In this document: piece after piece, positions 74 to 59,043 of the stretch
Layout: every line of letters starts with the position of its first letter
Position numbering within the stretch: the first letter of the stretch is position 1
Origin: Bathymodiolus japonicus methanotrophic gill symbiont
GTDB lineage: Bacteria > Pseudomonadota > Gammaproteobacteria > Methylococcales > Methylomonadaceae
Length of the DNA stretch: 64,000 nt
NCBI RefSeq assembly: GCF_019721995.1
Contig: NZ_BLYC01000013.1
Location: forward strand, 1-64,000
Reading direction: 5' to 3'
Made by a program: the position numbers and the translations under genes
Notes under the pieces: model-generated
Told to the model about the DNA's origin: nothing
Databases searched by the model: none
Seen by the model: the letters and a program-made list of their open reading frames with translations, nothing else

Positions 74-630
74 CAGGCGCGCCATGCTACCTCACGAAAT
101 TCCGGGACTCCTGTCGCCGTAATTCGTTCACCTACGCTGAAAATCCTGGAAACGGAGCTTTAGCGAAGTGAAGATTTTTAGTCCGCGATAGCCGTAGGGC
201 CGTTGTTTTGTCGGAGTCTGAGCGTTAGCGAAGGTGGAGACAAAATAAAAGGCCATCCGACACGGCGTCAAGTCATTTGGAGCCTATGTTCCGACCCCTT
301 GTTGGGTCGGGACAAGGTGACGAGGACGAATCGGGGCCGCCGGAGGCATAAGTGGTCGCGTTAAGTTTTTGCTGCTTGCTTGGGCTGGGATGCCCAAAAC
401 AAGCTTTCGCAAAAATAGCGACTCCCCGACGCAGCGAATAGGAGATGCCCCAGCCGCCCTGCGTCCGCCACAGACTTGAGCACAAAGCAGCTCAGTCATG
501 GCTACCACAAATGGCTCTACGGCTATTCGGGATAAAATTTTAGCCCTCCCTCGCGCGCTATCGCGCACTTCGGATTGGCAAATTTCCCTGCGCCTTCTGG
601 AGACTATCAGCCCGTCCGGGGCTGACAGCG
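74..630 (-). mobile_element. CGCTG element type B, copy 1 (interrupted by type A)
   Basis: A 262-bp type B element (tail CAGGCGCGCC first, head ending GACAGCG) sits in the left end of IS4-a. The uninterrupted site CCTAAAC/AAAGCAG is present at about 14590 and 38720, so the insertion is exact, with no target duplication. A type A copy is nested at 135-429. Confidence 0.85.
135..429 (+). mobile_element. CGCTG element type A, copy 1 (295 bp)
   Basis: Begins CGCTGAAAATC and ends ACTCCCCGA. The host is the type B element; the empty site CCTA/CGCAGCG is seen in other type B copies (e.g. 17274-17533), so there is no target duplication. Its first 52 bp are a variant (AAAATCCTGG) identical to the solo head at 55203-55254. 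It holds several strong hairpins and no credible gene. Confidence 0.85.
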
Positions 631-755
631 AAAGCAGCCTATAACCTACCTGAAGGTAGCACCACTCGAATATTTCCATCTTTTTGATTTTAATCACTTA
701 TAACAGCAAATAGACACTCTGTAGGCACCGTAAAAAAACAACAAATAATTTCAAA

Positions 756-929
756 CGCTGAAAATCATGGAAACGGAGCTTAGCGAAGTGGTGATTTTTA
801 GTCCCTGATAGGCGACAGGGCAATTCGCTGATTCGACGTGTGCTAGCAGCACGCGAGAGGAGCAAGAATTGCATTCCGAATAGCCGTCCAGCCAGTGAGG
901 TAGTAATGACGAAGCGGCTTTTGTGCGTA
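756..929 (+). mobile_element. CGCTG element type C, copy 1, right part missing
   Basis: Starts with CGCTGAAAATCATGG directly after TTCAAA of the IS4-a left end (intact continuation at 38850). It matches the first 174 bp of the 280-bp type C copies, then stops where type B copy 2 begins. The GGCGCGCCTG tail of this copy is absent. Confidence 0.8.
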
Positions 930-1189
930 CGCTGTCAGCCCCGGACGGGCTGATAGTCTCCAGAAGGCGCAGGGAAATTTGCCAATCCGAAGTGCGCGAT
1001 AGCGCGCGAGGGAGGCTAAAATTTTATCCCGAATAGCCGTAGAGCCATTTGTGGTAGCCATGACTGAGCTGCTTTGTGCTCAGTCTGTGGCGGACGCAGG
1101 GCGGCTGGAGCATCTCCTATTCGCTGCGTAGGTGAACGAATTACGGCGACAGGAGTCCCGGAATTTCGTGAGGTAGCATGGCGCGCCTG
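930..1189 (+). mobile_element. CGCTG element type B, copy 2 (260 bp)
   Basis: A complete element from CGCTGTCAGCC to GGCGCGCCTG. It joins the truncated type C on the left to the truncated IS66 transposase on the right, so its two flanks are not a single former sequence. A deletion or recombination accompanied or followed insertion. Confidence 0.85.
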
Positions 1190-2291
1190 TTTAGGCTTAT
1201 CGGGTGGTGGGCATTCGATCTCCGCTTTGCCAAGTAATTCTCTGTATTGTACCTTCCATTTTTCTGCTTCTTTATGTAGTAGCATGCCACCTGCTTCATT
1301 GACGGCATCATTCATTTTTTCAAGTAGTCGTTTCATTTCAAGCGCCCACTCCTGTTTATCCTGCTCCCAGGCGCGCGTTAATTCCCTCAAATGATGTGCA
1401 TTACAAAGCGAATGAGTACAATCATATTTATAGTAGGGCTTCCAATGATCATGACATAAAATCCCATGAAAATGGGGTAAAATACCAATGTCATTCATTG
1501 CCTCTGTGCCACGTTTGGCATGGGGAAAGAAGTGTGTCCACTGAACATTGGAGGCCCCATGTAGCCAATGGCGCTTACCATTAATATTAATGCCTGTTTC
1601 ATCCGCATGAATGCACGCTGATTCGACTAAGTGTTCTTTACTGATAGTTTCAAACCCAGCCAACTTCTCATAGGCCAGTTCATTGAAATTATAGATAGAG
1701 CCTTCACTAATCGGCATACCTAATTGATCAGCGAAATACTCCTGTATTCGGTTGTAGGGCAATAACTGATATTGCGAAAGATAAACCACATGGGCTTTTA
1801 TCCCATTACCATATTGCGCAGCCTTAGTAACCTCATCTGGAAAAGGAGCGATAAAACACTGACCCTTTTCCATTTATCAACCGTTGCGCCTGGTATTCTG
1901 TCACTACCCTTGAGATATCAATATCGAATACCTGGCGTGTTTCAAAGCCATCTGCCGTGTATCGCCCTTTTGGCAAGGTACGGCGATCAATGGTAATGAT
2001 CTCGATTTCATCCGAGTCATCTATTTTTTGAAGTGTCGTGCCGACATGCGATTTTTGTCCGCCAGAAGGCTTATCTGATTTTTTTCGATTCCCTTTTTTA
2101 CGGTTGGGATCACTTGCAGGTGGTTTACTGCTATTTTTGCTGTTCAGTGTCACTCGATTGAGTAATACCGTGACTAATAATAGAATCACTTCCAGTGCTG
2201 ATTTTAGCGCAGGCGATATATCACGCTCAGTTTCAAGTAACTGTTTGGCATGACTGATTGCGGAATCAACATCGATGAAGTCTATTTTCAA
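1190..2291 (-). pseudogene. IS66 transposase, truncated and frameshifted
   Basis: IS66-family DDE transposase remnant. The N-terminal part (1833-2291) and the central part with the HADETG catalytic motif are in different frames because one extra G lies near 1866 relative to the copy at 28780. The C-terminal third, including NNAAENSIR, is lost where a CGCTG type B element abuts, and the reading frame runs on into that element (QARHATS...). The element is non-functional. Confidence 0.9.
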
Positions 2292-2517
2292 AGGGTAACC
2301 TGTATTGCTTTAAGGACAGGCTTATTATCTCATGGGTTTTAAATCCCGAATTTTCCTTGTTTTAAGCGATTGTAAGGCGAATAAAAAAGTTCTTCGAGGT
2401 CGTAGATGTTTAAGGGGACATTTTGTGATGACTATAGCGATAGAAGCAATAAAGCGTGGATTAATCGACTGTTGGGCAGTTTACTAAAAATCACAAAAAC
2501 CAGACTAAAACCCTGTC

Positions 2518-2671
2518 ACTCGATGTTCAAGTTTTCAGCTATAACTGGGCTAAGAAAAGTAAATTTTTCCGGCTTTGTTTTATAGGTGATTGATTTACAA
2601 TGATGTTGATGCTTTCTTTGTCAGTAAAATTATCAATAAAATCAATCAGTTAAAAAACTTGAACATCGAGT
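2518..2671. repeat. 154-bp MITE of the IS4-b family, copy 1
   Basis: A non-coding 154-bp unit with 18-bp terminal inverted repeats ACTCGATGTTCAAGTTTT, the same ends as IS4-b. It is flanked by GTC on both sides (2515-2517 and 2672-2674), and the empty site CCCTGTCAAG is seen at about 28555. It must be mobilised in trans by the IS4-b transposase. Confidence 0.9.
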
Positions 2672-2693
2672 GTCAAGAACTTTTTTAATTATT

Positions 2694-2984
2694 CAGGCGC
2701 GCCATGCTACCTCACAACATTCTGGGACTCCTGTCACCAACATTCATTCGCCTACGCAGCGAATGGGAGATGCCCTGGTCGCCCTGCGTCCGTCTCAACT
2801 ACTCAACTACGCACAAAACCCTGCTCAGTTAAGTCTACCTCAAATGGCTGGACGGCTATTCGGAATGCAATTCTTGCCTCCCTCGCGCGCTACTAGCGCA
2901 CTTCGGATCAGCGAATTGCCCTGTCGCCTACCAGAGACTAAAAATCATCACTCCGCTTAGGCTCCGTTTCCCTGATTTTAAGCG
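2694..2984 (-). mobile_element. CGCTG element type D, copy 1 (291 bp)
   Basis: Runs from CAGGCGCGCC to TTTTAAGCG. It lies between the IS66 terminal repeat and the transposase leader, at the same place as in the complete IS66 at 27905, so it inserted once and was then copied as part of the IS66 element. Confidence 0.85.
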
Positions 2985-3000
2985 TACGCTGAGTAGTTAC

Positions 3001-4362
3001 TTTTAAATCACTGAAGTCGCATAGACGAACAAGTATGCTTGAGGCATTTGAACAGCAGAGCTATCATCTTCACTCTGAAACACTGCTGTCGCAAGGCATT
3101 GATTATCTTAAAGCATTCCCTGAACTTGACGAATACACCATCGCTGAAAATCAGGGAAACGGAGCCTAAGCGAAGTGATGATTTTTAGTCCGCGATAGCC
3201 GTAGGGCCGTTATTTTGTCGGAGTCTGAGCGTTAGCGAAGGTGGAGACAAAATAAAAAGCCATCCGACACGGCGTCAAGTCATTTGGAGCCTATGTTCCG
3301 ACCCCTTGTTGGGTCGGGACGAGGTGACGAGGACGAATCGGGGCCGCCGGAAGCATAAGTGGTCGCGTTAAGTTTTTGCTGCTTGCTTGGGCTGGGATGC
3401 CCAAAACAAGCTTTCGCAAAAATAGCGACTCCCCAAAGAAGCAGCGGATGGACATTTTATTGATCATGCCTGCCATACTGAAAAAAACAGCAAGGGGAAA
3501 GTTTATGCGGCCGGGGGGGATTTACGCGTTGAATCTCAGAAGTGGGTTGCTCAGATTTCTTTGTCTGGTGACAAACGGAACTCAGAGGCATCAAGAAATA
3601 CCTGTGTTACGAGATCATATTGAAAAGCAAAACAAGGGAAATAACAGCTCTCAGAAACATCTCTATGTCTACGATAAAGCCGTCACCGACTTTGTCTGGT
3701 GGGATCGGCAGAAACGACATGCTAATTACATGATTTCAATGCTAAAAGAAAATTCAATTGCGACTCTGGTTGAGTCTATCCCTTTTGACTCCCGCCATGA
3801 GATCAATACAGGGGTTGAAGCATACAGTGTGTACGAAAACAAGGGCATCAAATTTAACGTGGTGGATTACCGTGATCCAGAAACCGGAAAACTTCACCGG
3901 TTTGTGACAACCTTGCCAATGACTATTAACCCTGGAACCATTGCCATGCTGTATTTCAAGCGATGGACGATTGAAAAGACATTCAATAACACTAAAAGTA
4001 ATTTCAAGGAAACTAAAGCTTGGTCTTCCAATACCCGCTCACTTGAAAATCAAATGCGCCTGACTGCAATGAGCTATAATTTAATGCGCGTGTTTGAAGA
4101 GATTTCAAAAATACAACAGCCAGAATTGATTCATCCATCGGATAAAAAATATAGCGAGGCTCTGGAGATTAGGCAGCAACAGGCCCAAAAACGAGATCGT
4201 TTTGTGAATCCATTATTTTTCCAGGCAAGAATATCTCGTATCAGCCCGTATACCATTCGGGCAGTTCAAAACGCAATAATAACAGGAATGTCTTTACAGT
4301 GCTTTATGAGCTCTCTTGTGGCGAGGTTAGTTTCACGGCCTCAATTGATAGGGGAACACTGA
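3001..4362 (+). pseudogene. IS4-a transposase, 5'-truncated, split by type A
   Basis: DDE transposase of the IS4 family. The visible signature is Y-2-R-3-E-6-K in YFKRWTIEKTFNNTK. Reading resumes after IS66 at FKSLKSHRR (about 3002), is broken by a 295-bp CGCTG element at 3142-3436, and continues to LIGEH at 4362. The first 80 or so residues are displaced by IS66. Compare the intact order at 38927-42337. Confidence 0.9.
3142..3436 (+). mobile_element. CGCTG element type A, copy 2 (295 bp)
   Basis: Inserted in the IS4-a transposase between CCAT and AGAAGCAGC (intact at about 39299). No target duplication. It ends CCCCAA rather than CCCCGA. Confidence 0.88.
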
Positions 4363-4365
4363 TGA

Positions 4366-5640
4366 TTACTTTAGGGCTTTAAAGCCGATATCGGTGCGGT
4401 AATAGACTTTATTCCAGCAGATTTTGGACGTTAACTGGTAGGCTTTTTCCTGTGCCTGCTGGATATTATCACCAAGTGCACAGGCACATAAAACGCGGCC
4501 ACCTGCAGTAACAACATTGCCGTCGACTAAGCGGGTACCAGCATGAAAGACCTTGCTGTCACTGGTTTGTATTTTGGGTAAGCCGCTGATTATATCTCCT
4601 TTAGGGTATTTGTCTGGATAGCCTCCGGCGGCTAATACGACACCCAGGGCACTGCGTTCGTCCCATTCGGTACTGATATTGGCCAGGTGCTGAGCCAGCG
4701 CTGCTTCACATAGTTCCACCAGATCACTTTTCAGGCGCATCATAATCGGTTGTGTTTCCGGGTCGCCAAAGCGGCAGTTGTATTCCAGAACTTTTAGCTC
4801 ACCATTCGGCTTAATCATTAAGCCGGCGTATAAAAAGCCGGTATAGGGCATACCATCATCGGCCATGCCTTTTAAGGTTGGGTTAATCACTTCATCCATC
4901 ACCCGCTGATGAATTTCAGCAGTGACAATTGGGGCAGGGGAGTAGGCACCCATACCACCTGTGTTAGGCCCTTTATCGCCATTGTCGCGCGCTTTATGAT
5001 CTTGCGAACTGGCCATGGGCAGAGCCTGCTTGCCATCGGCTATTACGATAAAGCTGGCTTCTTCTCCGCTGAGAAATTCTTCAATAACCACGCGGCTACC
5101 CGCTTCCCCAAAGCTATTGCCAGACAGCATATCTTCCACTGCCACAATCGCTTCAGCTTCGCTTTGGGCAACGATAACGCCTTTGCCTGCGGCTAAGCCA
5201 TCGGCTTTAACCACGATGGGGGCGCCTTTGCTGCGGATATAGTCTATGGCTGCTTTGGTCTCTGTAAATGTCTGGTATTCTGCTGTAGGAATATTATGCC
5301 GTGCCATAAAGTCTTTGCAGAATTTTTTCGAGCCTTCAAGTTGTGCCGCTTTTGCACTAGGGCCAAAGCACTTTAATCCAGCTGCCTGAAAGGCATCGAC
5401 TATGCCTGCAACCAGTGGTACTTCAGGGCCAATAATAGTTAAGCCGATTTTTTCCTGTTGCGCAAAGTTCAGTAAGCCAGTGATATCTTCAACTTGTAGG
5501 TCTATATTTGTAAGCCTGGATTCTAACGCTGTTCCAGCATTACCAGGGGCAACATATACCCTCGCGACTTTAGGAGATTGACTGGCTTTCCAGGCTAGGG
5601 CATGCTCACGACCGCCACCACCGACTATAAGAATTTTCAT
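4366..5640 (-). CDS. purD: Phosphoribosylamine--glycine ligase (GAR synthetase)
   Basis: Catalyses step 2 of purine synthesis: ATP-dependent joining of glycine to phosphoribosylamine in the cytoplasm. The 424 residues match the usual family length. Visible are the N-terminal GGGGREHA motif (about residues 7-14), the ATP-grasp segment with VVKADGLAAGKGV (about 147-159) and the metal-binding CRFGDPETQ. It is the last gene of dusB-fis-purH-purD. The IS4-a right end lies immediately after the stop codon, so the native 3' flank is lost but the protein looks complete. A long palindrome separates it from purH. Confidence 0.97.
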   Translation of the reverse strand: MKILIVGGGGREHALAWKASQSPKVARVYVAPGNAGTALESRLTNIDLQVEDITGLLNFAQQEKIGLTIIGPEVPLVAGIVDAFQAAGLKCFGPSAKAAQLEGSKKFCKDFMARHNIPTAEYQTFTETKAAIDYIRSKGAPIVVKADGLAAGKGVIVAQSEAEAIVAVEDMLSGNSFGEAGSRVVIEEFLSGEEASFIVIADGKQALPMASSQDHKARDNGDKGPNTGGMGAYSPAPIVTAEIHQRVMDEVINPTLKGMADDGMPYTGFLYAGLMIKPNGELKVLEYNCRFGDPETQPIMMRLKSDLVELCEAALAQHLANISTEWDERSALGVVLAAGGYPDKYPKGDIISGLPKIQTSDSKVFHAGTRLVDGNVVTAGGRVLCACALGDNIQQAQEKAYQLTSKICWNKVYYRTDIGFKALK

Positions 5641-5674
5641 AAAGATACGAGAGGTTTTTAGATAAGAATTTCAA

Positions 5675-5740
5675 CCTGTAGTGCGTGGCTTTAGCTCGCC
5701 ATTCTTTAGTGATTAGCGGGCTAAAGCCACGCACTACAGG
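5675..5740. terminator. Long palindrome between purH and purD
   Basis: Arms of about 22 bp (CCTGTAGTGCGTGGCTTTAG at 5675 and its complement ending at 5740) surround a 20-bp loop. An arm of the same kind recurs at 47233-47290. It could form a strong transcript hairpin that lowers purD expression relative to purH, or be an extragenic repetitive palindrome. No U-tract follows on the minus strand, so a classical terminator is uncertain. Confidence 0.6.
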
Positions 5741-5758
5741 GTAATGATATGGCGTTAT

Positions 5759-7318
5759 TTAATGTTTAAAATGGCGCATGCCGGTAAATACCATGGCGAT
5801 ATTATGCTCATTCGCGGCATCTATCACTTCATTATCGCGCATCGAACCACCTGGCTGAATCACTGCGGTAATACCCGCTTCGGCAGCAGCATCCAGGCCA
5901 TCTCTAAAGGGGAAAAAAGCATCTGAAGCCATCACTGAGCCAGGTACTGTTAAGCCTTCATCAGCTGCTTTTATGCCTGCAATTCTAGCAGAATAAACTC
6001 GGCTCATTTGTCCGGCACCCACTCCGATCGTACGTCCACCTTTACAGTAGACGATAGCATTGGATTTAACAAATTTGGCGACTTTCCAGGCAAATAGTAA
6101 GTCGCTTAATTCCTGTTCGGTCGGCGCGCGCTTGCTGACGACTTTAACTTCAGCGGCGCTGATCATGCCGTGGTCCTTGTCCTGTACAAGCAAGCCGCCT
6201 GATACACGTTTATAGTCGAGGCCAGGTTCGTTGCCGCTATTCCATAAACCACATTCCAGCACCCGCACATTTTGTTTTGCAGAGAGCACTTGCAGTGCAG
6301 CAGGACTGATCGTCGGCGCAATAATGACTTCAACAAACTGACGCTTAATAATCTCGGTGGCAGTGGCTTCATCTAGCTCACGGTTAAAGGCAATGATGCC
6401 GCCAAAAGATGAAGTAGGGTCTGTAGCATAGGCCAGGTCATAAGCATCCAGAATGGAGTCTGCCTGTGCGACACCACAGGGATTTGCGTGTTTGACAATT
6501 ACGCAAGTGGGCTTGTCTTCAAATGACTTAACGCACTCTAGTGCGGCATCGGTATCAGCGATATTATTATAGGACAGCTCTTTACCTTGCAGTTGCTTTG
6601 CCGCTGCAATCGTGCCTGATATGGGTGATTTTTCCTTGTAGAATGCTGCATTCTGATGCGGGTTTTCACCATAACGCATGCTTTGAATTTTGTTAAATTG
6701 TAGGTTCAGCGTTGCGGGAAATTCCTGCTGGTTTACTTTCGCTAAATAAAGTGAGATAGCTGTGTCGTAGTTTGCCGTGTGCTCAAAGCTTTTTAACGCA
6801 AGATTAAAACGGGTCTGCCGTGCTAACTGCCGGTCATTATCGCGTAGCTCATTTAAGATTGCTGCATAATCGGCTGGATCAACGACAATCGTGACATCCT
6901 TATGATTCTTAGCTGCACCACGTATCATGCTAGGTCCGCCTATATCGATATTTTCAATAGCGGTTGCTAAATCACAGTCAGGCCGGGCAACGGTTTCTTC
7001 AAAAGGGTAGAGATTGACAACTACCATATCAATGGGTTTGATACCGCTGTCTGCCATCACCTGATCGTCGACACCACGACGCCCCAGGATGCCTCCATGT
7101 ATTTTTGGGTGCAAGGTTTTGACACGGCCACCCATCATCTCTGGAAAGCCAGTGTAGTCAGAGACTTCGGTAACATTAATGTTATTTTCGGCTAATAATC
7201 TGGCCGTGCCGCCGGTGGATAATAATTCAATACCGAGTTGGTCGAGTTCGCGGCAAAAATCAAGTACACCGGTTTTGTTAGAAACGCTGATTAACGCGCG
7301 ATTAACTTTTTTTTTCAT
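5759..7318 (-). CDS. purH: Bifunctional AICAR formyltransferase / IMP cyclohydrolase
   Basis: Carries out the last two steps of IMP synthesis in the cytosol. The start chosen is ATG at 7318 ([13 protein letters not shown]), because residues upstream in the same frame come from the fis region and are not PurH-like. That gives 519 residues, the usual length. Visible are the N-terminal MGS-like cyclohydrolase domain ([34 protein letters not shown]) and the C-terminal transformylase domain with [17 protein letters not shown] and [12 protein letters not shown]. It is preceded closely by fis and dusB and probably cotranscribed with them. Confidence 0.97.
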
Positions 7319-7343
7319 GAAAATCTCTAAAGATAAAGGGAGG

Positions 7344-7604
7344 TTAGGATAGGCCGTATAAGGCAAGCTTTTTGCGTAAAGTGCTACGGCTAATACCAAG
7401 AATTTGTGCGGTTTTAGTCTGGTTATAGCCTGAATACTGCAGCGTCGCTTCGAGTAGTGGCTTTTCAACTTCAGTGAGTACCAGTGCATGCAGGTTAGTC
7501 GTCTGATGACCATCCAGTGAAGCCAGGTATTGATTAACCGCTGTTTTTACCTGAGCAGACAAGGTGATGGGCGTTTGATTATTAGCAATGGTCATTGGTA
7601 TCAA
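7344..7604 (-). CDS. fis: Fis family nucleoid-associated regulator
   Basis: Small DNA-bending protein that influences chromosome structure and growth-phase transcription. The C-terminal helix-turn-helix ([20 protein letters not shown], about residues 59-78) is the Fis signature. The frame can start at TTG 7604, overlapping the dusB stop, or at ATG 7595 (MTIANN); either gives 83-86 residues. The overlap with dusB is the classic enteric arrangement and implies one transcript. Confidence 0.93.
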
Positions 7605-8611: not shown

Positions 8612-8729
8612 CTTAGGGTAGGGGTATTTTTTACGCGGCTGATAATGATACTACAAAAGCAGTATGAAATACTGAGTTTTGTGTGCTTACGTAGGTTTTT
8701 TTATTGTTATGCTAGGTTAAAAGAACAGT

Positions 8730-9518: not shown

Positions 9519-9526
9519 TGCAAATA

Positions 9527-10324: not shown

Positions 10325-10325
10325 A

Positions 10326-15758: not shown

Positions 15759-16327
15759 AGATTTTTTTTAGAAAATCATTCTCTACTTTCAGTTGCCCTA
15801 TCTGCTTGTACAGATCGTCAACTAAAGCCTGCTGGTCATTATCCTGTTGTTTCCTTTTAGTCGAGAATGCTTCAGGAATAACCTCTAATACAGCTTTTTT
15901 CCAATTGTTGATTTGTGTTGCATGAATACCATATTTCGCGGTAATTTCAGCCGCTGAAAATCAGGGAAACGGAGCCTAAGCGAAGTGATGATTTTTAGTC
16001 CGCGATAGCCGTAGGGCCGTTATTTTGTCGGAGTCTGAGCGTTAGCGAAGGTGGAGACAAAATAAAAGGCCATCCGACACGGCGTCAAGTCATTTGGAGC
16101 CTATGTTCCGACCCCTTGTTGGGTCGGGACGAGGTGACGAGGACGAATCGGGGCCGCCGGAGGCATAAGTGGTCGCGTTAAGTTTTTGCTGCTTGCTTGG
16201 GCTGGGATGCCCAAAACAAGCTTTCGCAAAAATAGCGACTCCCCAATCTTGTCTTTTCCCCTTTTAGTACGTCTAATAACACTTTTACTTTGGTTTGCGT
16301 ACTATGCTTCTTACGATTTATGGTCAT
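15749..16327 (-). pseudogene. IS3 OrfA, split by a CGCTG type A element
   Basis: Starts MTINRKKHSTQ at 16327. When the 295-bp element at 15952-16246 is removed, the frame is restored exactly (KGEKT/RAEITAKYGI), giving a normal helix-turn-helix and leucine-zipper OrfA. This shows the insertion was exact and duplicated nothing. Confidence 0.88.
15952..16246 (+). mobile_element. CGCTG element type A, copy 3 (295 bp)
   Basis: Inserted in IS3 orfA; ends CCCCAA. Excision on paper restores the protein frame with no extra or missing base. Confidence 0.88.
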
Positions 16328-16671: not shown

Positions 16672-16928
16672 CGCTGTCAGCCCCGGACGGGCTGATAGTC
16701 TCCAGAAGGCGCAGGGAAATTTGCCAATCCGAAGTGCGCGATAGCGCGCGAGGGAGGCTAAAATTTTATCCCGAATAGCCGTAGAGCCATTTGTGGTAGC
16801 CATGACTGAGCTGCTTTGTGCTCAGTCTGTGGCGGACGCAGGGCGGCTGGAGCATCTCCTATTCGCTGCGTAGGTGAACGAATTACGGCGACAGGAGTCC
16901 CGAATTTGTGAGGTAGCATGGGCGCCTG
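16672..16928 (+). mobile_element. CGCTG element type B, copy 3
   Basis: From CGCTGTCAGCC after GATTATCTTA of IS4-a to a slightly degraded tail (GGGCGCCTG, lacking GC of GGCGCGCCTG). The right-hand host sequence has been lost and a 315-bp MITE follows directly. Confidence 0.82.
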
Positions 16929-16929
16929 A

Positions 16930-17244
16930 CCCATCTCGTCACTTTCTCTTTTAAGCCATGATCATCGGTTTAGCGATTTTTTGTCGAAAAATTCTCTTTA
17001 AAATCCATGGTGTTTTTTTTGAAAGTTTTGTAGTGCCATTTATATTATTTTTGTCGATAAATTCATTGTGACTTTTGTCAAAAAAATCATCATTATTTGA
17101 GTGTAATTTACATGCGACAAAAATACTCTAAAAAATCCAACGTTTTATACAAAAACACAAAATCTGTAGTGCCAACTGGCTACTTTTTAAAATTTCAACC
17201 AATTGATTTATAACAACTACATCATCAATAGTGACGAAGATGGG
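16930..17244. repeat. IS5-like 319-bp MITE, copy 1 (315 bp)
   Basis: Inverted ends CCCATCTTCGTCAC / GTGACGAAGATGGG (left end here reads CCCATCTCGTC). Flanks are CTGA on the left and CTAA on the right. The two sides belong to different hosts (type B element, IS4-b), so this copy looks like a recombinant between two insertions. It holds internal degenerate repeats of TTTTGTCGAWAAATT and no gene. Confidence 0.85.
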
Positions 17245-17273: not shown

Positions 17274-17533
17274 CGCTGTCAGCCCCGGACGGGCTGATAG
17301 TCTCCAGAAGGCGCAGGGAAATTTGCCAATCCGAAGTGCGCGATAGCGCGCGAGGGAGGCTAAAATTTTATCCCGAATAGCCGTAGAGCCATTTGTGGTA
17401 GCCATGACTGAGCTGCTTTGTGCTCAGTCTGTGGCGGACGCAGGGCGGCTGGAGCATCTCCTATTCGCTGCGTAGGTGAACGAATTACGGCGACAGGAGT
17501 CCCGGAATTTCGTGAGGTAGCATGGCGCGCCTG
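17274..17533 (+). mobile_element. CGCTG element type B, copy 4 (260 bp)
   Basis: Complete copy, best reference for the type. The head is CGCTG, stem TCAGCCC, loop, stem GGGCTGA, TAGTC. It sits in IS4-b between CCAATCATA and CTTTATTAATT; about 33 bp of IS4-b are missing at the junction compared with 20816-20866. Confidence 0.87.
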
Positions 17534-21404: not shown

Positions 21405-21687
21405 CGCTTAAAATCAGGGAAACGGAGCCTAAGCGGAGTGATGATTTTTAGTCCCTGGTAGGCGACAGGGCAATTCGCTGATCCGAAGTGCGCTAGTAGC
21501 GCGCGAGGGAGGCAAGAATTGCATTCCGAATAGCCGTCCAGCCATTTGAGGTAGTCTTAACGGAGCAGGGTTTTGTGCGTAGTTGAGACGGACGCAGGGC
21601 GACCAGGGCATCTCCCGTTCGCTGCGTAGGCGAATGAATGTTGGTGACAGGAGTCCCAGAATTTCGTGAGGTAGCATGGCGCGCCTG
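21405..21687 (+). mobile_element. CGCTG element type D, copy 3 (283 bp)
   Basis: Inserted within the last bases of the IS4-b end: GAACATC / GAGT, which reads GAACATCGAGT in every other IS4-b end. No target duplication. Starts CGCTTAAAATC, ends GGCGCGCCTG. Confidence 0.9.
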
Positions 21688-23133: not shown

Positions 23134-23452
23134 CCCATCTTAGTCACTTTCATCTTTCTAAGCCATTGATTCATCGGTTTAAGCGATTTTTTGTCGAAAA
23201 ATTCTCTTTAAAATCAATGGTGTTTTTTTTGAAAGTTTTGTAGTGCCATTTATATTATTTTTGTCGATAAATTCATTGGCTTTTGTCAAAAAAATCATTA
23301 TTATTTGAGTGTAATTTACATGCGACAAAAATACTCTAAAAAATCCAACGTTTTATACAAAAACACAAAATCTGTAGTGCCAACTGGCTACTTTTTAAAA
23401 TTTCAACCAATTGATTTATAACAACTACATCATCAATAGTGACGAAGATGGG
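23134..23452. repeat. IS5-like 319-bp MITE, copy 2
   Basis: Complete MITE with CCCATCTTAGTCAC / GTGACGAAGATGGG ends and a clean TTAG duplication (23130-23133, 23453-23456) inside the DUF3426 gene. YTAR 4-bp duplications are the habit of the IS5 group of the IS5 family. Confidence 0.9.
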
Positions 23453-23659: not shown

Positions 23660-23961
23660 AGCGGGGAGTCGCTATTTTTGCGAAAGCTTGTTTTGGGCAT
23701 CCCAGCCCAAGCAAGCGGCAAAAACTTAACGCGACCACTAATGCCTTCGGCGCCCCAGACGTCCTGCGTACGTGCCACTTCGCCATTACCATCGTAAACT
23801 CGGGGCTGGCTTCGTAACACTCCCTCAAATGACTGGACGGCGTTTCGGAATGCCTTTTATTTTGTCTACACCTACGCTAGCGCTACGATTCCGACAAAAC
23901 AACGGCTCTACGCCTTCTGGGGACTACCAGCCCTCGCTTTCGCTCTCCATGGCTGGCAGCG
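23660..23961 (-). mobile_element. CGCTG element type E, only copy (302 bp)
   Basis: Tail and body match type A (GGGGAGTCGCTATTTTTGCG, TTTTATTTTGTC) but the head is of the type B kind: GACTA, stem CCAGCC, loop, stem GGCTGG, CAGCG. It interrupts the DUF3426 gene, and its removal restores the frame (NKLH/YPLPTYRNL) with no duplicated base. One base of boundary ambiguity. Confidence 0.85.
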
Positions 23962-27920: not shown

Positions 27921-28534
27921 CGCTTAAAATCAGGGAAACGGAGCCTAACCCATCTTCGTCACTTTCATCTTTCTAAGCCATTGATTCATCGGTTTAAGCG
28001 ATTTTTTGTCGAAAAATTCTCTTTAAAATCAATGGTGTTTTTTTTGAAAGTTTTGTAGTGCCATTTATATTATTTTTGTCGATAAATTCATTGACTTTTG
28101 TCAAAAAAATCATCATTATTTGAGTGTAATTTACATGCGACAAAAATACTCTAAAAAATCCAACGTTTTATACAAAAACACAAAATCTGTAGTGCCAACT
28201 GGCTACTTTTTAAAATTTCAACCAATTGATTTATAACAACTACATCATCAATAGTGACGAAGATGGGCTAAGCGGAGTGATGATTTTTAGTCTCTGGTAG
28301 GCGACAGGGCAATTCGCTGATCCGAAGTGCGCTAGTAGCGCGCGAGGGAGGCAAGAATTGCATTCCGAATAGCCGTCCAGCCATTTGAGGTAGACTTAAC
28401 TGAGCAGGGTTTTGTGCGTAGTTGAGTAGTTGAGACGGAAGCAGGGCGACTAGGGCATCTCCCATTCGCTGCGTAGGCGAATGAATGTTGGTGACAGGAG
28501 TCCCAGAATGTTGTGAGGTAGCATGGCGCGCCTG
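27921..28534 (+). mobile_element. CGCTG element type D, copy 2 (interrupted by MITE)
   Basis: CGCTTAAAATC at 27921 to GGCGCGCCTG ending at 28534, with the 319-bp MITE at 27949-28267. It lies between the IS66 terminal repeat and transposase leader, as in IS66 copy 1. Confidence 0.87.
27949..28267. repeat. IS5-like 319-bp MITE, copy 3
   Basis: Clean CTAA duplication (27945-27948, 28268-28271) inside the type D element. The empty site GAGCCTAAGCGG is seen in other copies. Ends CCCATCTTCGTCAC / GTGACGAAGATGGG. Confidence 0.93.
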
Positions 28535-38054: not shown

Positions 38055-38334
38055 CGCTGAAAATCATGGAAACGGAGCTTAGCGAAGTGGTGATTTTTAG
38101 TCCCTGATAGGCGACAGGGCAATTCGCTGATTCGACGTGTGCTAGCAGCACGCGAGAGGAGCAAGAATTGCATTCCGAATAGCCGTCCAGCCAGTGAGGT
38201 AGTAATGACGAAGCGGCTTTTGTGCGTAGTCGTTGCGGACGCAGGGCGTTCAGGGCATCTCCCATCCGCTGCGTAGGTGAACGAATTATGGCGACAGGAG
38301 TCCCGGAATTTCGTGAGGTAGCATGGCGCGCCTG
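38055..38334 (+). mobile_element. CGCTG element type C, copy 2 (280 bp)
   Basis: Complete copy joining truncated IS30 (left) to the channel gene fragment (right). The frame of the channel gene continues into its tail as QARHATSRNSGTPVAII. Its two flanks are not a former continuous sequence. Confidence 0.86.
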
Positions 38335-40008: not shown

Positions 40009-40288
40009 CGCTGAAAATCATGGAAACGGAGCTTAGCGAAGTGGTGATTTTTAGCCCCTGATAGGCGACAGGGCAATTCGCTGATTCGACGTGTGCTAGC
40101 AGCACGCGAGAGGAGCAAGAATTGCATTCCGAATAGCCGTCCAGCCAGTGAGGTAGTAATGACGAAGCGGCTTTTGTGCGTAGTCGTTGCGGACGCAGGG
40201 CGTTCAGGGCATCTCCCATCCGCTGCGTAGGTGAACGAATTATGGCGACAGGAGTCCCAGAATTTCGTGAGGTAGCATGGCGCGCCTG
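40009..40288 (+). mobile_element. CGCTG element type C, copy 3 (280 bp)
   Basis: Inserted in IS4-b between ACATCCTT and TATTAATTC; the intact site is at about 20820 on the other strand. No target duplication. Confidence 0.92.
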
Positions 40289-40510: not shown

Positions 40511-40805
40511 CGCTGAAAATCAGGGAAACGGAGCCTAAGCGAAGTGATGATTTTTAGTCCGCGATAGCCGTAGGGCCGTTATTTTGTCGGAGTCTGAGCG
40601 TTAGCGAAGGTGGAGACAAAATAAAAGGCCATCCGACACGGCGTCAAGTCATTTGGAGCCTATGTTCCGACCCCTTGTTGGGTCGGGACGAGGTGACGAG
40701 GACGAATCGGGGCCGCCGGAGGCATAAGTGGTCGCGTTAAGTTTTTGCTGCTTGCTTGGGCTGGGATGCCCAAAACAAGCTTTCGCAAAAATAGCGACTC
40801 CCCGA
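40511..40805 (+). mobile_element. CGCTG element type A, copy 4 (295 bp)
   Basis: Inserted in IS4-b between CTTCATC and TAATTGTTTGG; intact site at about 20595 and 60833. No target duplication. Ends CCCCGA. Confidence 0.92.
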
Positions 40806-47232: not shown

Positions 47233-47290
47233 GTAGGGCGCGGCTTTAGCCCGCCTGTACATATAAAGGCGGGCTAAAGCCGCGCCCTAC
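47233..47290. terminator. Palindrome between secF and ndk
   Basis: Two perfect 23-bp arms (GTAGGGCGCGGCTTTAGCCC first) around a 12-bp loop. The transcript would form a very stable hairpin, followed by a T-rich stretch (ATTTTTTTATTTTAAT at 47298), so it may terminate the sec transcript. It is also a member of the same palindrome family as 5675-5740. Confidence 0.7.
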
Positions 47291-47343
47291 AAAGACAAAT
47301 TTTTTTATTTTAATATTTAATTAACCTTAGGAGTTTTAAAAAA

Positions 47344-49634: not shown

Positions 49635-49652
49635 AGCAGTAAAGATTTATTT

Positions 49653-50918: not shown

Positions 50919-50944
50919 CCAACTATATTTAGAAAGGTAATAAA

Positions 50945-51598: not shown

Positions 51599-51642
51599 CC
51601 GCAGATATTTCATACATCTAGTAAGTGAAAACTGATTTATAC

Positions 51643-52824: not shown

Positions 52825-52840
52825 GCACATAGATAATCTA

Positions 52841-53042
52841 CTGAAGTTTCCCAATTATTGAGTAGCTGAAATACACAATGCTGGTGTATCGAGGTTCATT
52901 TTAGGTGGTTTTGCCATGTTTATAGCAAACCCCTACTTAATTCCCCTTAGGCAATAGCATTTGAAACGAATGAAAAGACTATTTTTCATATAGTTGTAGC
53001 ATAGTTTCAATTTTACCATAAATAATTATTGGGAAACTTCAG
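52841..53042. repeat. IS4-c-type MITE (202-bp family), copy 2
   Basis: Uninterrupted 202-bp copy between bamB and der, ends CTGAAGTTTCCCAAT. Flanks ATAATCTA and GTAATCTA suggest an 8-bp duplication with one later change. It could impede cotranscription of der with bamB. Confidence 0.9.
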
Positions 53043-53143
53043 GTAATCTATTGTTTTGGTTACATTATTTAATTGCAGGCCACTAGGTTCTGTACTTTAA
53101 TCGGGCTTGTATAGAGTTCGGTGCTTTACTCTACGGAATTTGT

Positions 53144-54574
53144 ATGACATTACCCGTTATCGCCCTGGTTGGCCGACCTAATGTGGGCAAATCAACTTTA
53201 TTTAATTATCTAACCCGTACTCGCGATGCCCTGGTTGCCGATTACCCCGGCTTAACACGCGACCGCAAATATGGTCGTGTAAGGCGCGGGGAAACGCCCT
53301 ATCTACTAGTGGATACCGGGGGAATAACCGATAATGTCGATGGCATTGACTTGGTTGCCAAAAGACAGGTTGAACTGGCTTTGGAAGAAGCTGATGTAGT
53401 GTTGTTCCTGGTTGATGCGCGTGAAGGTTTGAACAGCGCGGATGAAGCCATTTCAGCCATGCTGAGAAAACTAGACAAGCCCGTTATTCTGGTGACTAAC
53501 AAGATTGACGGCATCAATGCCGAGATTGCAGTTGCAGACTTTCATCGCCTGGGGATAGGTAACCCGGTTTCTATCGCTGCAACCCATGGGCGTGGGGTGA
53601 ATGAATTACTGCATCGAGTCAGTTCTGAATTACCTGAAACCATAGAGCAAACAGAAGCCGAACTACAGGGCCAGGGTGTTGCTATCGCAATTGTTGGCAG
53701 GCCGAATGTGGGTAAGTCAACGCTGGTTAATCGCCTGCTGGGTGAAGAGCGGGTGGTGGTTTTTGATGAGCCGGGTACCACTAGAGATAGCGTCTATATT
53801 CCGTTTGAGCGTAACGACAAAAAATATACCCTGATTGATACTGCAGGTATGCGCCGCCGGGCAAAGGTGACACTGGTGGTAGAAAAATTTAGTATTATTA
53901 AAGCCCTGCAATCGGTAGAAAAGGCTAATGTAGTGATTTACTTGGTTGATGCCAGTGAAGGTATCACCGATCAGGATGCACATTTACTAGGCATGGTGCT
54001 AGATGCGGGGCGTGCACTTATTATCGGCTTTAATAAATGGGATGGGCTGGACTTTGATCAGCGCGAATTGATTAAGCGCCAGACTGAGGTCAAGCTCCCT
54101 TTTTTAAGCTTTGCCGAGAAGCACCCTATCTCTGCCTTGCATGGCAGCGGCGTGGGTAATCTATTCGATGTGGTACATAAATTATATGATGCGGCGATGG
54201 TGGATATGTCTACTTCGGTACTCACGCAGATATTAAAAGATGCGGTAGCAGGACATCAGCCGCCGATGATCAACGGGCGCAGAATTAAATTAAAATATGC
54301 GCACCAGAGTGGACGAAACCCACCAGTGGTTGTAGTACATGGTAATCAGACAGATTTATTGCCAGCGGCTTACGGGCGTTACTTAATTAATTATTTTCGT
54401 AATAAGCTACGCCTGGAAGGCACGCCAATAAAGATTGTCTTTAAATCTCCTAAAAACCCATTTAAAGCAGTTAAAAATAAATTAAGCGATCGACAGTTAC
54501 ATAAGAAAAAGCGCTTAATGGAACATTATAAAAAGAAGAAAATATCCTTAAAAAGAAAAAGCAGGGGTGCGTAG
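53144..54574 (+). CDS. der: Ribosome-assembly GTPase Der (EngA)
   Basis: 476 residues with two tandem GTPase domains. Each has a P-loop (GRPNVGKSTLFNYL near 10, GRPNVGKSTLVNRL near 184), DTGG/DTAG switch II and NKID/NKWD. A KH-like C-terminal domain and a Lys-rich tail follow. Acts in 50S subunit maturation. Confidence 0.97.
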   Translation: MTLPVIALVGRPNVGKSTLFNYLTRTRDALVADYPGLTRDRKYGRVRRGETPYLLVDTGGITDNVDGIDLVAKRQVELALEEADVVLFLVDAREGLNSADEAISAMLRKLDKPVILVTNKIDGINAEIAVADFHRLGIGNPVSIAATHGRGVNELLHRVSSELPETIEQTEAELQGQGVAIAIVGRPNVGKSTLVNRLLGEERVVVFDEPGTTRDSVYIPFERNDKKYTLIDTAGMRRRAKVTLVVEKFSIIKALQSVEKANVVIYLVDASEGITDQDAHLLGMVLDAGRALIIGFNKWDGLDFDQRELIKRQTEVKLPFLSFAEKHPISALHGSGVGNLFDVVHKLYDAAMVDMSTSVLTQILKDAVAGHQPPMINGRRIKLKYAHQSGRNPPVVVVHGNQTDLLPAAYGRYLINYFRNKLRLEGTPIKIVFKSPKNPFKAVKNKLSDRQLHKKKRLMEHYKKKKISLKRKSRGA

Positions 54575-54580
54575 CGCAGA

Positions 54581-54596
54581 GCGGACTTTAGTCCGC
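54581..54596. repeat. Short extragenic palindrome after der
   Basis: GCGGACTTTAGTCCGC, 7 bp after the der stop. Same core as 25198-25213 and the half copy at the start of the window. Confidence 0.65.
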
Positions 54597-55202
54597 TAGG
54601 AAAAAGAGGATTAACTTGAAAAGGCTGCTACATAAATAGTTTTTTTGCTTTATTAAAGTTTTAAGCTGAAGTTTCTTAGAAATTCATCAAGCAACCATTC
54701 GCAATAAAACGGCTACCACCGAATTTACAGGGGAGCTGCTGTATTTGGGGCAAACCCTTTCGAAATCCGGATCCAAAGCCGCTTCGGCAATGATGCGGCG
54801 GATATCTGAAAAGGCGAAACTGGCTCGCCCCTTCACTTTGTGCCGACGTTCCGGATTGGTTTTTAAACGATCCGCGTAAATCCACGTCAGCGTTGTTGCC
54901 ATCATACAGAAGTTCAAATGGTTGGTCACTGCCTGCGCATTTCGACACTGACTTTTATGGCTCCCTATGTCTTGCTTGAGCTCTTTGAACCCAGATTCGA
55001 TTTTCCATCGCGCACCATAATACTCAATAATCTGTGTGACGGATAAACTTAGATCGGTCGTAAACAAAGCAATCCACTGTGTGCGACGAAACACCCAAAC
55101 AACCTGAACGGGTCGTTTCAATGTTTTCAGCATGACAACGCGACTATAAGCCCTGACTTCACGCTGTTTTCCATAGAGATTCACGGTATACGATCGGGCC
55201 TT

Positions 55203-55254
55203 CGCTGAAAATCCTGGAAACGGAGCTTTAGCGAAGTGAAGATTTTTAGTCCGC
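55203..55254 (+). mobile_element. Solo 52-bp CGCTG head
   Basis: Exactly the first 52 bp of type A copy 1 (CGCTGAAAATCCTGG to TAGTCCGC), standing directly before a complete type A. The empty site GGGCCTT/TTGTTGTACTG at about 34790 shows that the 52-bp unit plus the 295-bp unit are the whole insert, with no duplication. Confidence 0.85.
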
Positions 55255-55549
55255 CGCTGAAAATCAGGGAAACGGAGCCTAAGCGAAGTGATGATTTTTA
55301 GTCCGCGATAGCCGTAGGGCCGTTATTTTGTCGGAGTCTGAGCGTTAGCGAAGGTGGAGACAAAATAAAAGGCCATCCGACACGGCGTCAAGTCATTTGG
55401 AGCCTATGTTCCGACCCCTTGTTGGGTCGGGACGAGGTGACGAGGACGAATCGGGGCCGCCGGAGGCATAAGTGGTCGCGTTAAGTTTTTGCTGCTTGCT
55501 TGGGCTGGGATGCCCAAAACAAGCTTTCGCAAAAATAGCGACTCCCCGA
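55255..55549 (+). mobile_element. CGCTG element type A, copy 5 (295 bp)
   Basis: Complete; adjacent to the 52-bp head inside IS4-c. Ends CCCCGA. Confidence 0.9.
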
Positions 55550-56088
55550 TTGTTGTACTGTTTTTGCCATGTCCGGGGCTGACAGCGGAAGAAGCCATGA
55601 AAGTGTAAAAGCGCTTATTCTTGATCTCAAACCCAAACAACGTATCAAGGTAACGCCAAAGATTAGAGGTCATTGATGACGTAAAAGGAACGATAATGGA
55701 CAGGATCGTGTAAACGAACAGAGAGGCTCGTTCGCGGCCTAAAGTGGTTTCGGAAAAATGATCTTGAAGCGGGAGTAAAATATCGCGTAAAATAAACATG
55801 AATGAGGTCGTTTTATTTGTATAATCAATGTGTTAGAAACTTTCATTATACACTAAAACTAGGCCTCATTCACGATTAACCTGTTGTTTTTAAAAAGAAT
55901 TAAAGGCTTTTAGTCAACGGAATGCCATTAATATTAGTAATGTCTAATATTCCAGAAAAATAAGCATTAGCTGATATTCTTATGCTTTAAAAACTAGGAA
56001 ACTTCAGGTTTTAAGTTAGCTACAATTTAAATAGCACAAATAAGGTTACCAAGTTAGACCAGAACAAATAAAAAATGAAGTTAGCAAA

Positions 56089-56383
56089 CGCTGAAAATCA
56101 GGGAAACGGAGCCTAAGCGAAGTGATGATTTTTAGTCCGCGATAGCCGTAGGGCCGTTGTTTTGTCGGAGTCTGAGCGTTAGCGAAGGTGGAGACAAAAT
56201 AAAAGGCCATCCGACACGGCGTCAAGTCATTTGGAGCCTATGTTCCGACCCCTTGTTGGGTCGGGACGAGGTGACGAGGACGAATCGGGGCCGCCGGAGG
56301 CATAAGTGGTCGCGTTAAGTTTTTGCTGCTTGCTTGGGCTGGGATGCCCAAAACAAGCTTTCGCAAAAATAGCGACTCCCCGA
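56089..56383 (+). mobile_element. CGCTG element type A, copy 6 (295 bp)
   Basis: Complete, ends CCCCGA. It lies 6 bp after the stop of the PIN-domain pseudogene. No empty site is available in the window for comparison. Confidence 0.87.
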
Positions 56384-56389
56384 CTGGAG

Positions 56390-57075
56390 TTAGGCTTCAA
56401 TAAAATCTGTCACATCTATTGAAATAGATGGAAACTCGCGTAAAATTTTTTTGTTTTGTGTAACAAGTGGAATATTGAGGTGCTGAGCTAAAGCAATAAA
56501 TTCACAGTTATAAGATGAGTAATTACTTTTAGCAACTAATGCTAGAACTTGAGCCGATGGAAGATCAAATTCATTATTAAGCATAATAGATTCTGCCGCT
56601 GAAAATCATGGAAACGTAGCTTAGCGAAGTGGTGATTTTTAGTCCCTGATAGGCGACAGGGCAATTCGCTGATTCGACGTGTGCTAGCAGCACGCGAGAG
56701 GAGCAAGAATTGCATTCCGAATAGCCGTCCAGCCAGTGAGGTAGTAATGACGAAGCGGCTTTTGTGCGTAGTCGTTGCGGACGCAGGGCGTTCAGGGCAT
56801 CTCCCATCCGCTGCGTAGGTGAGCGAATTATGGCGACAGGAGTCCCGGAATTTCGTGAGGTAGCATGGCGCGCCTGTGTCTCTTGTAGCTAAAATGCCTT
56901 ATTCAAAAGTAATAATTTCTTTTCTGATATAAAGGGCTAAAACATTACGAAATTCACTTTTCCATAATGTTGGAGTAAGCCATTCTGAGTCTAGTTTATA
57001 AAGTTTATCAACTAACTCTGAGTATGAAGTTGGTAATAAAAGATAACAGAGGATATTTGTATCAGCAACAATCAT
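56390..57075 (-). pseudogene. VapC-like PIN-domain toxin, split by type C element
   Basis: Start ATG 57075: MIVADTNILCYLLLPTSYSE, then SEWLTPTLWKSEFRNVLALY. An in-frame TAA follows ITFE (about 56905; CAA expected), then the 280-bp element at 56597-56876, then AESIMLNNEFDLPSAQVLAL and YNCEFIALAQHLNIPLVTQN to FIEA. The acidic residues of a PIN ribonuclease are recognisable (VADTN, CEF). A one-base frame mismatch across the element shows further decay. The toxin is dead. Confidence 0.85.
56597..56876 (+). mobile_element. CGCTG element type C, copy 4 (280 bp)
   Basis: Complete copy in the PIN-domain gene, CGCTGAAAATCATGG to GGCGCGCCTG. Confidence 0.9.
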
Positions 57076-57165
57076 GGCCTGCCTTCATTAGTAGTATGTT
57101 CAATATCGTGCGTGCTAATATTATTTGCTTTAACTTGAGAGCGAAGAGCTTGAAGGTTTATGTAT
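57072..57165 (-). pseudogene. Antitoxin C-terminal remnant
   Basis: A frame ending TGA at 57072 overlaps the PIN toxin start in the classic ATGA arrangement. It reads INLQALRSQVKANNISTHDI then EHTTNEGRP. No start codon is found upstream before an in-frame stop near 57200, so the N-terminal DNA-binding part has been lost. Confidence 0.6.
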
Positions 57166-57509
57166 AATATTGTAATGTTGTATGCATCTTTTTCGGAGGG
57201 CTATATGAGAACTACTCTTGATTTACCAGGGAATTTGCTTATTGAGGCTATGAAATTAAGCCATGCAAATACTAAAATCGGGGTTATTGTACGAGCCTTG
57301 GATGAATTATTAAGAAAATCAAAAAGTTCTAATTTAAAAAAAGAATAACGGGAAGATTGATATATAGACTTTCAGAAAATTAATTTCCGAACAAACAAAA
57401 ACGACAGAGGGGAAACTGGCTTATAATTTTCGTCCCAACACTAACGGAAACAGTCAAAAATGGTATCCCTCACTTTTTCAAAGTCAATTGTAGACCGACT
57501 AAAAAAAAT

Positions 57510-59043
57510 ATGGCGACAGCTCTCAAGCTAAGTAATATTTGTTTATATCGATTAACTCAAGCTTTACTCTGGTTCAGTGAATGCATGGGAATCAAAGAAA
57601 TAGCACGCCTAATGGGAGTCTGTGAAAAAACCATTATAAATTGGCTGAAAACATTCATGCATAAAGGTGTCGGTTGGTTAATAGGGCAACACTATCAAGG
57701 ACGTGGTCGGAAGTCAAAGTTAACTAAAGACCAGAAAAATAGATTGGTTGAGTTGATAAAGAAAGGCCCAGAAGACAATGGATTTCATTGTGGAATATGG
57801 AATACTGCGATGATTGCCGAGCTTATTTGGTTAAAATTTGAAGTTCGTTATAACTTGAACTATTTATCAAGCCTAATGAAAAAACTGGGCTTCAGTTATC
57901 AAAAAGCTCGTTTTGTGACTGATCGCCAAGAAGAAGAAAAGTACGAGCTTGAAAGAAAAACGTGGCTGGAAGAAACATTGCCTGCCATTATGGAAAAGGC
58001 GGTAGAAGAAAAGAGTGTCGTTTTATTCGGTGATGAGGTGTCATTTGCTATGTGGGGTTCATTGGCACGAACCTGGGCTCCAATAGGAGAGCAACCCACA
58101 GTGAAAACATCAGGGATTCGAAAAGGGTTGAAAATGTTTGGTACGATCGAACTCGAAGGAGGGAGTTTTCAATACCGAGAATCATTCGCTGAAAATCAGG
58201 GAAACGTAGCCTAAGCGAAGTGATGATTTTTAGTCCGCGATAGCCGTAGGGCCGTTGTTTTGTCGGAGTCTGAGCGTTAGCGAAGGTGGAGACAAAATAA
58301 AAGGCCATCCGACACGGCGTCAAGTCATTTGGAGCCTATGTTCCGACCCCTTGTTGGGTCGGGACGAGGTGACGAGGACGAATCGGGGCCGCCGGAGGCA
58401 TAAGTGGTCGCGTTAAGTTTTTGCTGCTTGCTTGGGCTGGGATGCCCAAAACAAGCTTTCGCAAAAATAGCGACTCCCCGAGGCTTATGAGATAAAACCA
58501 AAGTCACTTAGACTTTTAAAAGAAGCTGGGCTGCCTCAAGAATTTTTAGCTATTCTTAAAAGCTTAAAAAATGAGAAATATCCAACACAGAAGCTTTTTA
58601 TGGAAGCGATATATTCTATTGCCGACAACGTCTTAATCGAGAGTTATAAGCCAATGATATTACAACACGCTGAAACATCTGGGCGTTTTAATGGTGAAAG
58701 CTATGTTGAGTTTTTAACACAATTGCTGGCTTATTATAAAGGCAAGATTATTCTAATTGAAGATGGTGCCCCGTATCATGGAAGCGGTGTTATTAAGGAA
58801 TTTAAGTTAGCTAATGTAGATCGTTTGACAGTAGAACGTCTCCCTGCGTTCTCGCCGGATTTTAATCCGATTGAGAAATTATGGAAAAATACGAAACGCG
58901 ATTCGACTCATATGAAGTATTTTAAAACTTTTGAAGATCTTCATGATTCAGTTGTGCAAACTTTTAACACTTATATGCATGATGCCAGTAAAGTGATTTG
59001 TGTTATGCAAAAATTGCGGGAAGATTTCGTTGTTACCGCCTAA
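57510..59043 (+). pseudogene. IS630 transposase, split by type A plus 186-bp passenger
   Basis: Helix-turn-helix N-terminus (MGIKEIARLMGVCEKTI), DDE core: FGDEVSFAMWG, ILIEDGAPYHGSGV, LPAFSPDFNPIEKLW. Between GGSFQYRES and TSGRFNGESYVEFL, where the family is continuous, lie the 295-bp element and 62 extra in-frame codons (AYEIKPKSLRLLKEAGLPQE onward). Removing 58187-58667 restores YRESFAETSGRFNG. Confidence 0.88.
58187..58667 (+). mobile_element. CGCTG element type A, copy 7, plus 186-bp passenger
   Basis: 58187-58481 is a complete type A (head CGCTGAAAATC, end CCCCGA). 58482-58667 is an unrecognised 186-bp open stretch (encoding AYEIKPKSLRLL to IESYKPMILQH). The host resumes at CGCTGAAACATC, so host sequence TCATT/CGCTGAAACATC is interrupted exactly, but the host itself happens to read CGCTGAA there. 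Confidence 0.75.

Follow-up and report, generated by a model that had tools for sequence, protein, structure and literature searches.

A family of gene-less folded elements with exact insertion and a one-base target rule in a methanotrophic gill symbiont of Bathymodiolus

Elements of the window and their distribution

In the present study, we analysed a stretch of 64,000 nucleotides (the window) from the methanotrophic gill symbiont of Bathymodiolus japonicus (contig NZ_BLYC01000013.1, assembly GCF_019721995.1) and the family of gene-less, folded elements of 260-300 nt that is scattered in it. These elements nearly always insert exactly, three bases after a C, and their plus strand carries a covarying fold; they were probably moved by a single-strand mechanism of the HUH type, a view held here with moderate confidence. 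The source genome measures 4.97 Mb in 109 contigs, and the window belongs to its contig C13. Twenty-two family matches were found in the window, 15 of them full, and the full copies are 97-100% identical within their type, except one of type D (95%). The original prediction had listed types A to E and a 52-bp unit. Type A (with two subtypes, A1 and A2), types B, C and D and the 52-bp unit are present in the window, but type E is an unrelated element of another kind. The copies are given below, with a caret for the insertion point in the target.

74..630, minus strand: type B split by an A1 copy (B parts 74-134 and 430-630)
135..429, plus strand: full type A1 within type B, which was also found uninterrupted (L085)
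756..929, plus strand: type C, cut off after base 174 and directly followed by the next B copy
930..1189, plus strand: type B, full
2694..2984, minus strand: type D, full, 95% identical
3142..3436, plus strand: type A2, full; target CCAT^; uninterrupted site found
15952..16246, plus strand: type A2, full; target CAGC^; uninterrupted site found
16672..16928, plus strand: type B, full
17274..17533, plus strand: type B, full
21405..21687, plus strand: type D, full; target CATC^
23662..23926, minus strand: diverged A-like copy (80%), without 5' end
27921..28534, plus strand: type D (parts 27921-27948 and 28268-28534) split by the unrelated inverted-repeat element first listed as type E
38055..38334, plus strand: type C, full; target CACC^
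40009..40288, plus strand: type C, full; target CCTT^; uninterrupted site found
40511..40805, plus strand: type A2, full, end ...CCCCGA; target CATC^; uninterrupted site found
55203..55254, plus strand: 52-bp unit, the first 52 bases of an A1
55255..55549, plus strand: type A2, full; target CCGC^
56089..56383, plus strand: type A2, full; target CAAA^
56597..56876, plus strand: type C, full; target CTGC^
58187..58481, plus strand: type A2, full; target CATT^; uninterrupted site found
27949-28267, 23134-23452 and about 16923-17244: copies of the unrelated 319-bp element first listed as type E

The 52-bp unit is probably the remnant of an A1 that received an A2 and then lost its remainder. Types A1, A2, B, C and D all start with CG-CT(G/T), followed by a 5' hairpin whose foot, CT(G/T)...TAG, begins at element base 2-3; in type B this foot carries an entirely different stem (CTGTCAGCCC...GGGCTGATAG). 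The 3' end is GCGACTCCCC plus two bases in type A, where the insert terminates two bases beyond CCCC, and GGCGCGCCTG in types B, C and D. In Methylotuvimicrobium buryatense, 22 aligned copies end mostly in ...GGCGCG(C/T)TTG and two in GCGACTCCCTG, and the copies of the relative G008 end in GGCGCGCCTG or GGCG(C/T)GCCAG. The absence of terminal inverted repeats had been predicted, and the two ends (CGCT... against ...GCGACTCCCC plus two bases or ...GGCGCGCCTG) are indeed not mutually inverted.

A pattern search of the whole 4.97 Mb source genome gave 920 occurrences of the exact 5' end. For closer analysis, the window and 80 further stretches, chosen non-randomly and totalling 1.6075 Mb, were used as the genome sample. 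It held 511 matches, of which 376 were full (C 119, B 97, A2 83, A1 57, D 20), and the matches cover 123,488 bases, equal to 7.7% of the sampled bases.

Outside the source genome, the family was met almost only in Methylococcales so far. The exact 5' end pattern was present in 19 of 61 genomes (source genome included), and a class-wide pattern search was positive in 2 of 369, namely the source genome and M. buryatense (G027). A GTDB-wide scan gave at least 53 stretches; among the matches listed, 52 bear the label of a methanotroph (Bathymodiolus methanotrophic symbionts, Methylotuvimicrobium buryatense 5G, Methylomonas, Crenothrix and others) and 1 that of a thiotrophic symbiont. An element copy lies on a 4.4-kb contig labelled Bathymodiolus heckerae thiotrophic symbiont (L160, NZ_FQTP01000104.1), which would be explained either by exchange among the gill symbionts or by mis-binning of the contig. 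Plasmid records gave 4 matches with each of two element types, all in Methylomonas, Methylobacter or Methyloprofundus, and phage records gave no match to type C, the only type used as query there. In the open-licence PMC literature, no title or abstract opening describing such a family was found.

Exact insertion and the target rule

The joined 80-base flanks of the 193 full copies tested were searched against the sampled genome for uninterrupted sites. An insertion was counted as exact when there was no gap (B, C, D) or exactly two bases (A) at the junction, with <=1 mismatch near it. Uninterrupted sites were found for 83 copies, and 73 of these were exact, with nothing duplicated or lost (A 38/41, B 22/25, C 12/16, D 1/1). 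The 10 non-exact sites comprised 5 failed alignments, 1 with junction mismatches, 1 with a distant gap and an intact junction, and 3 with extra bases: 4 bases instead of 2 in an A, 1 base in a B, and a 6-bp repeat in a C, which could be a target duplication. Among the window copies for which an empty target had been claimed, those at 135, 3142, 40009 and 40511 were recovered with their uninterrupted sites, and the copies at 15952 and 58187 were added to them. Thus, the original prediction of exact insertion was largely borne out, and the same 73 sites support its view of a gene-less mobile family that makes no target duplication and does not belong to the DDE-type miniature inverted-repeat transposable elements (MITEs).

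The element first listed as type E provides a positive control. It is an ordinary inverted-repeat MITE of 319 bp, unrelated to the family, with the terminal inverted repeat CCCATCTTCGTCAC and a 4-bp duplication (YTAR) in 60 of 62 copies, both strands counted. Since this MITE keeps its duplications in the same stretches, target duplications survive there and can be seen.

The insertion sites share one base. Of 187 distinct sites in the source genome, 183 have a C at -4, against a background frequency of 0.197 (P about 2e-122), and the rule holds in each type (A 77/79, B 45/47, C 54/54, D 7/7); the earlier statement that there is no shared target motif is contradicted by these counts. Other biases of the left flank at these sites are a rarity of C at -5 (7) and of G at -3 (19) and -1 (6), and the right flank is near information-free, with at most 0.06 bit per position. 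In the relatives, C at -4 was present in 133 of 135 distinct sites, and C at -5 and G at -1 were rare (7 each). The elements' own 3' ends likewise carry C at -4. Across the 187 sites there is one strict base only, and a conserved short terminal or target oligonucleotide of the kind known from palindrome-associated transposable elements (PATEs) is absent. In addition, six solo palindromic forms of the 5' hairpin, 48-51 bp long and with a left-type end on both sides (L008, L049, L087, L092, L146, L195), have C at -4 on both sides in all six cases, as was noticed after the rule had been established.

Fold and replication-strand bias

For the fold, alignments were built from one sequence per cluster and several genomes (8 of type A, 10 of type C/D), after removal of clusters that were chimeric, nested or internally deleted (4 of 12 for A, 5 of 15 for C). 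The type A fold contains 75 pairs, 26 of them with double-sided changes and 94.2% of cells paired, and the type C fold contains 82 pairs, 22 with double-sided changes and 96.7% of cells paired. None of 500 shuffles equalled the alignments in double changes or in covariation score; the number of further pair types was reached by 2/500 (A) and 39/500 (C). When the partner was slid by 1-3 columns, the pairs with double changes fell to 5-8 (A) and 1-5 (C), a comparison that favours the structures because they were derived from those same alignments. It is the central domain and 3' hairpin that contain the double changes, and the 5' hairpin is nearly invariant. The minus strand folds worse than the plus strand (-35 vs -73 kcal/mol for C, -62 vs -78 for A). 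Single-sequence z-scores were modest: -0.86 (RNA) and -0.69 (DNA) for a C copy and -2.46 (DNA) for an A copy. The description of these elements as hairpin-rich is therefore upheld by strong covariation, but single sequences exceed their composition only weakly. The covariation and the poorer fold of the minus strand indicate that the whole element appears to be under selection to fold on the plus strand, as DNA or as RNA.

The orientation of the copies was compared with replication by computing the skew with elements masked and scoring the plus strand against the G-rich strand of the contig. The plus strand lay on the G-rich strand in 283 of the 376 copies; among 31 contigs, 23 agreed with this bias, 5 disagreed and 3 were tied or empty. 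By stretch, the share on the G-rich strand climbs with the strength of the skew (54, 68, 76, 80%). The bias is seen in types A1 (36:14), A2 (50:16), B (53:21) and C (68:25). It is not explained by gene direction, since it holds beside open reading frames of either direction (87:19 and 69:46) in a test that left out 64 copies without a nearby open reading frame and the stretches of weak skew. Such a bias to the G-rich strand fits insertion into the lagging-strand template. On the chromosomes G027:C1 (M. buryatense) and G008:C1, copies with the exact pattern lie mainly on one strand of the chromosome (20:6 and 13:1), not on one replichore strand.

Candidate enzymes and mode of movement

The source genome has 22 matches to Y1_Tnp, mostly partial and two near full length. 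One of the two, on C2, is an IS200-type frame with an in-frame stop after its own start; the other, on C5 (L071 5389-6057), is an intact single RAYT gene between palindromes of its own (AAAGGGGACGYTACCCTTT), whose sequence is unrelated to the elements. This RAYT was rejected as the mobilizer: its closest orthologues are in G049 (76%), which has 0 exact 5' ends, and G017 (63%), which has 1. At L252, about 5200-5320 (G006:C129), a 45-nt 5' piece of an element lies between 50-bp direct repeats of the start of a Y1 (RAYT-like) gene, an aberrant event. The IS91-type Y2 transposase (PF04986) gave no match in the source genome and matches in 6 of 21 genomes searched, and IscB gave none in the source genome, G006, G008, G015 and G027. 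Rfam gave no match in the whole window at curated thresholds, group II intron RNA domains included; with the threshold relaxed to E up to 10 for bases 1-3500, three matches appeared, all of them chance-like. The source genome (5 matches) and 4/4 relatives searched possess reverse transcriptase genes; at the locus of the strongest match in the source genome, no group II intron RNA was found.

A longer autonomous version with the same ends, as the original prediction had envisaged, was not found in the DNA examined. In 0.81 Mb of the source genome, the distance from a left end to the following right end exceeded 420 bp in six cases (0.4-2 kb), and 40 right and 26 left ends were unpaired; the long spans that were inspected as possible gene carriers turned out to be nested or recombined elements. 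The only longer forms with the same ends are two copies of M. buryatense 5G (L357 and L362, at about 722 kb and 2530 kb), which carry a group II intron with a reverse transcriptase gene in the 5' hairpin, between nt 16 and 17. A third reverse transcriptase gene of M. buryatense is adjoined by a matching partial element hit. The intron looks like a passenger, and its identical position at two unrelated places suggests that the element serves as its landing site. In four other places (L036, L038, L074, L182) a type A end is fused to a type B start (CTCCCC^CGCTGTC). Since the bases beyond B are not the A remainder in two of them, A and B may have moved there as one unit.

We favour, as moderately probable, the explanation that these are non-autonomous elements mobilized by an HUH-type single-strand mechanism, PATE-like in mode. 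An HUH-like route was one of the candidates of the original prediction, and it gains from the exactness of insertion, the one-sided C at -4, the hairpins near both ends and the replication-strand bias of the source genome. We infer from these features HUH chemistry, a single-stranded intermediate and a role of the fold. A nuclease or transposase of Y1 type, acting in trans, would cleave on the 3' side of a C, at a distance of three bases, in three places: the left junction (CNNN^CGCT...), the 3' terminus of the element itself (CCTG^, CTTG^, CCAG^, CCRN^) and the target (CNNN^). The whole body folds into a 5' hairpin, a central branched domain and a 3' hairpin that ends in a short tail; this fold would place the two ends next to each other, and the released strand would be joined into the single-stranded lagging-strand template at a replication fork. 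Several observations weigh against this explanation. The 5' hairpin starts two bases from the cut, which leaves no room for a four-base guide; the target has a single strict base; and the covariation of the whole body exceeds what hairpin ends need. Among the loci read there is no Y1 enzyme with matching ends, and the IS200 blocks read in the source genome and G008 end differently. The RAYT does not follow the elements either, as the element-rich G006, G008, G015 and G027 hold only relatives of about 37-46%. Furthermore, type D has no strand bias (9:9), and replichore counts, made by hand with some copies placed by neighbouring windows, show no bias in two near-complete relatives (13:13 in M. 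buryatense, 9:5 in G008).

Other modes of movement have to be weighed against the same evidence. Transcription of the folded element and exact insertion of the RNA or its cDNA at fork-exposed DNA, by a reverse transcriptase in trans or by reverse splicing, is kept under consideration because the entire body, beyond the ends, is structurally conserved by its covarying plus-strand fold; the reverse transcriptase genes of the source genome and the four relatives also speak for it. We nevertheless consider it unlikely, given that no Rfam family matches the elements, that the strongest reverse transcriptase locus is without group II intron RNA, and that one strict target base is unlike the exon-pairing sites that group II introns target. 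Insertion without duplication is likewise the habit of IS110-type recombinases with a bridge RNA, IS607-type serine recombinases and tyrosine recombinases, any of which might act in trans, and a structured non-coding end suits a bridge RNA. However, bridge-RNA and core-site systems require longer or shared core sequences, and nearly all target information here is one C on one side, which makes a recombinase of these kinds distinctly improbable. The extra junction bases at 3 of the 83 sites, one of them the 6-bp repeat, are what an explanation by ordinary DDE-type MITEs with decayed duplications, or by assembly artefacts, can draw on. The elements show neither the terminal inverted repeats nor the target duplication of such MITEs, and the control shows both; 73 of the 83 sites are exact, whereas 60 of 62 control copies from these stretches still have their duplication. 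The idea that all insertions are assembly joins is unlikely because of the copy numbers and because the same target rule is found in the near-complete chromosome of a named strain, M. buryatense 5G. At the present sample size, an explanation by MITEs or artefacts is practically refuted.

Among known systems, HEARO and IscB omega-RNA elements are also folded and non-coding, about 300 nt long, inserted without duplication and sometimes gene-less. Our elements differ from them in the lack of an Rfam match, in the failure to detect IscB in five element-bearing genomes and in having no fixed tetranucleotide target. The published accounts cited below are used in excerpt. In the excerpts on the PATEs of Haloquadratum, the palindromes resemble IS605-type transposons of the same genome, most PATEs are tied to a short conserved terminal or target oligonucleotide, and there are 177-194 per genome (PMC3119063). 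Both families lack terminal inverted repeats and target duplications, have palindromes near their ends, are too short for a transposase and insert into other mobile elements (PMC3119063); they differ in that no parent IS605-type transposon was found here among the loci read, one base is strict, the whole body folds and the copies outnumber those 177-194. By description the elements may thus be called PATE-like, but derivation from an IS200/IS605 element of the source genome is not supported by the sequence comparisons made. For IS200/IS605 enzymes, insertion into the lagging-strand template, recognition of subterminal hairpins and use of a four-base guide 5' of the hairpin foot have been described (PMC6006769). 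With IS608 and ISDra2 the elements share the lack of duplication, the subterminal hairpins and a cleavage rule similarly placed at both ends, and a bias that fits the lagging-strand template is seen in the source genome but not in the two near-complete relatives; those transposons, unlike the gene-less elements with one strict base and no guide room, carry tnpA and a guide-read target of four to five bases. Repetitive extragenic palindromic sequences (REPs) are given as 21-65 nt long, with a GT(A/G)G foot, and as flanking their RAYT gene (PMC6006769). They and REPINs are similarly many-copy hairpin elements, for which mobilization in trans by a Y1 protein is proposed (PMC6006769), whereas our elements are 260-300 bp long, have no such foot and are not neighbours of the RAYT that was read. 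The Rickettsia palindromic elements (RPEs), ERIC and Correia elements resemble them as small stable-hairpin repeats dispersed across a genome; in the excerpts, RPEs encode conserved peptides within genes, ERIC and Correia are treated as MITEs, and the highest copy number given is 711, for ERIC (PMC10969869).

It is tentatively suggested that these elements may be a new kind: gene-less, folded, with some 1000 copies or more, in which the whole three-domain structure would be the substrate of a putative host enzyme recognizing one C at a distance of three bases from its cut, and whose intermediate may be RNA. The excerpted literature on single-strand elements describes none that combine a target rule of one base with exact insertion and with selection on the structure of the entire body. 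With near-identical copies and empty sites in the same genome, the family offers a good natural system for the study of gene-less spread. Since the named strain M. buryatense 5G, with its near-complete genome, carries copies, the missing enzyme is open to an experimental hunt.

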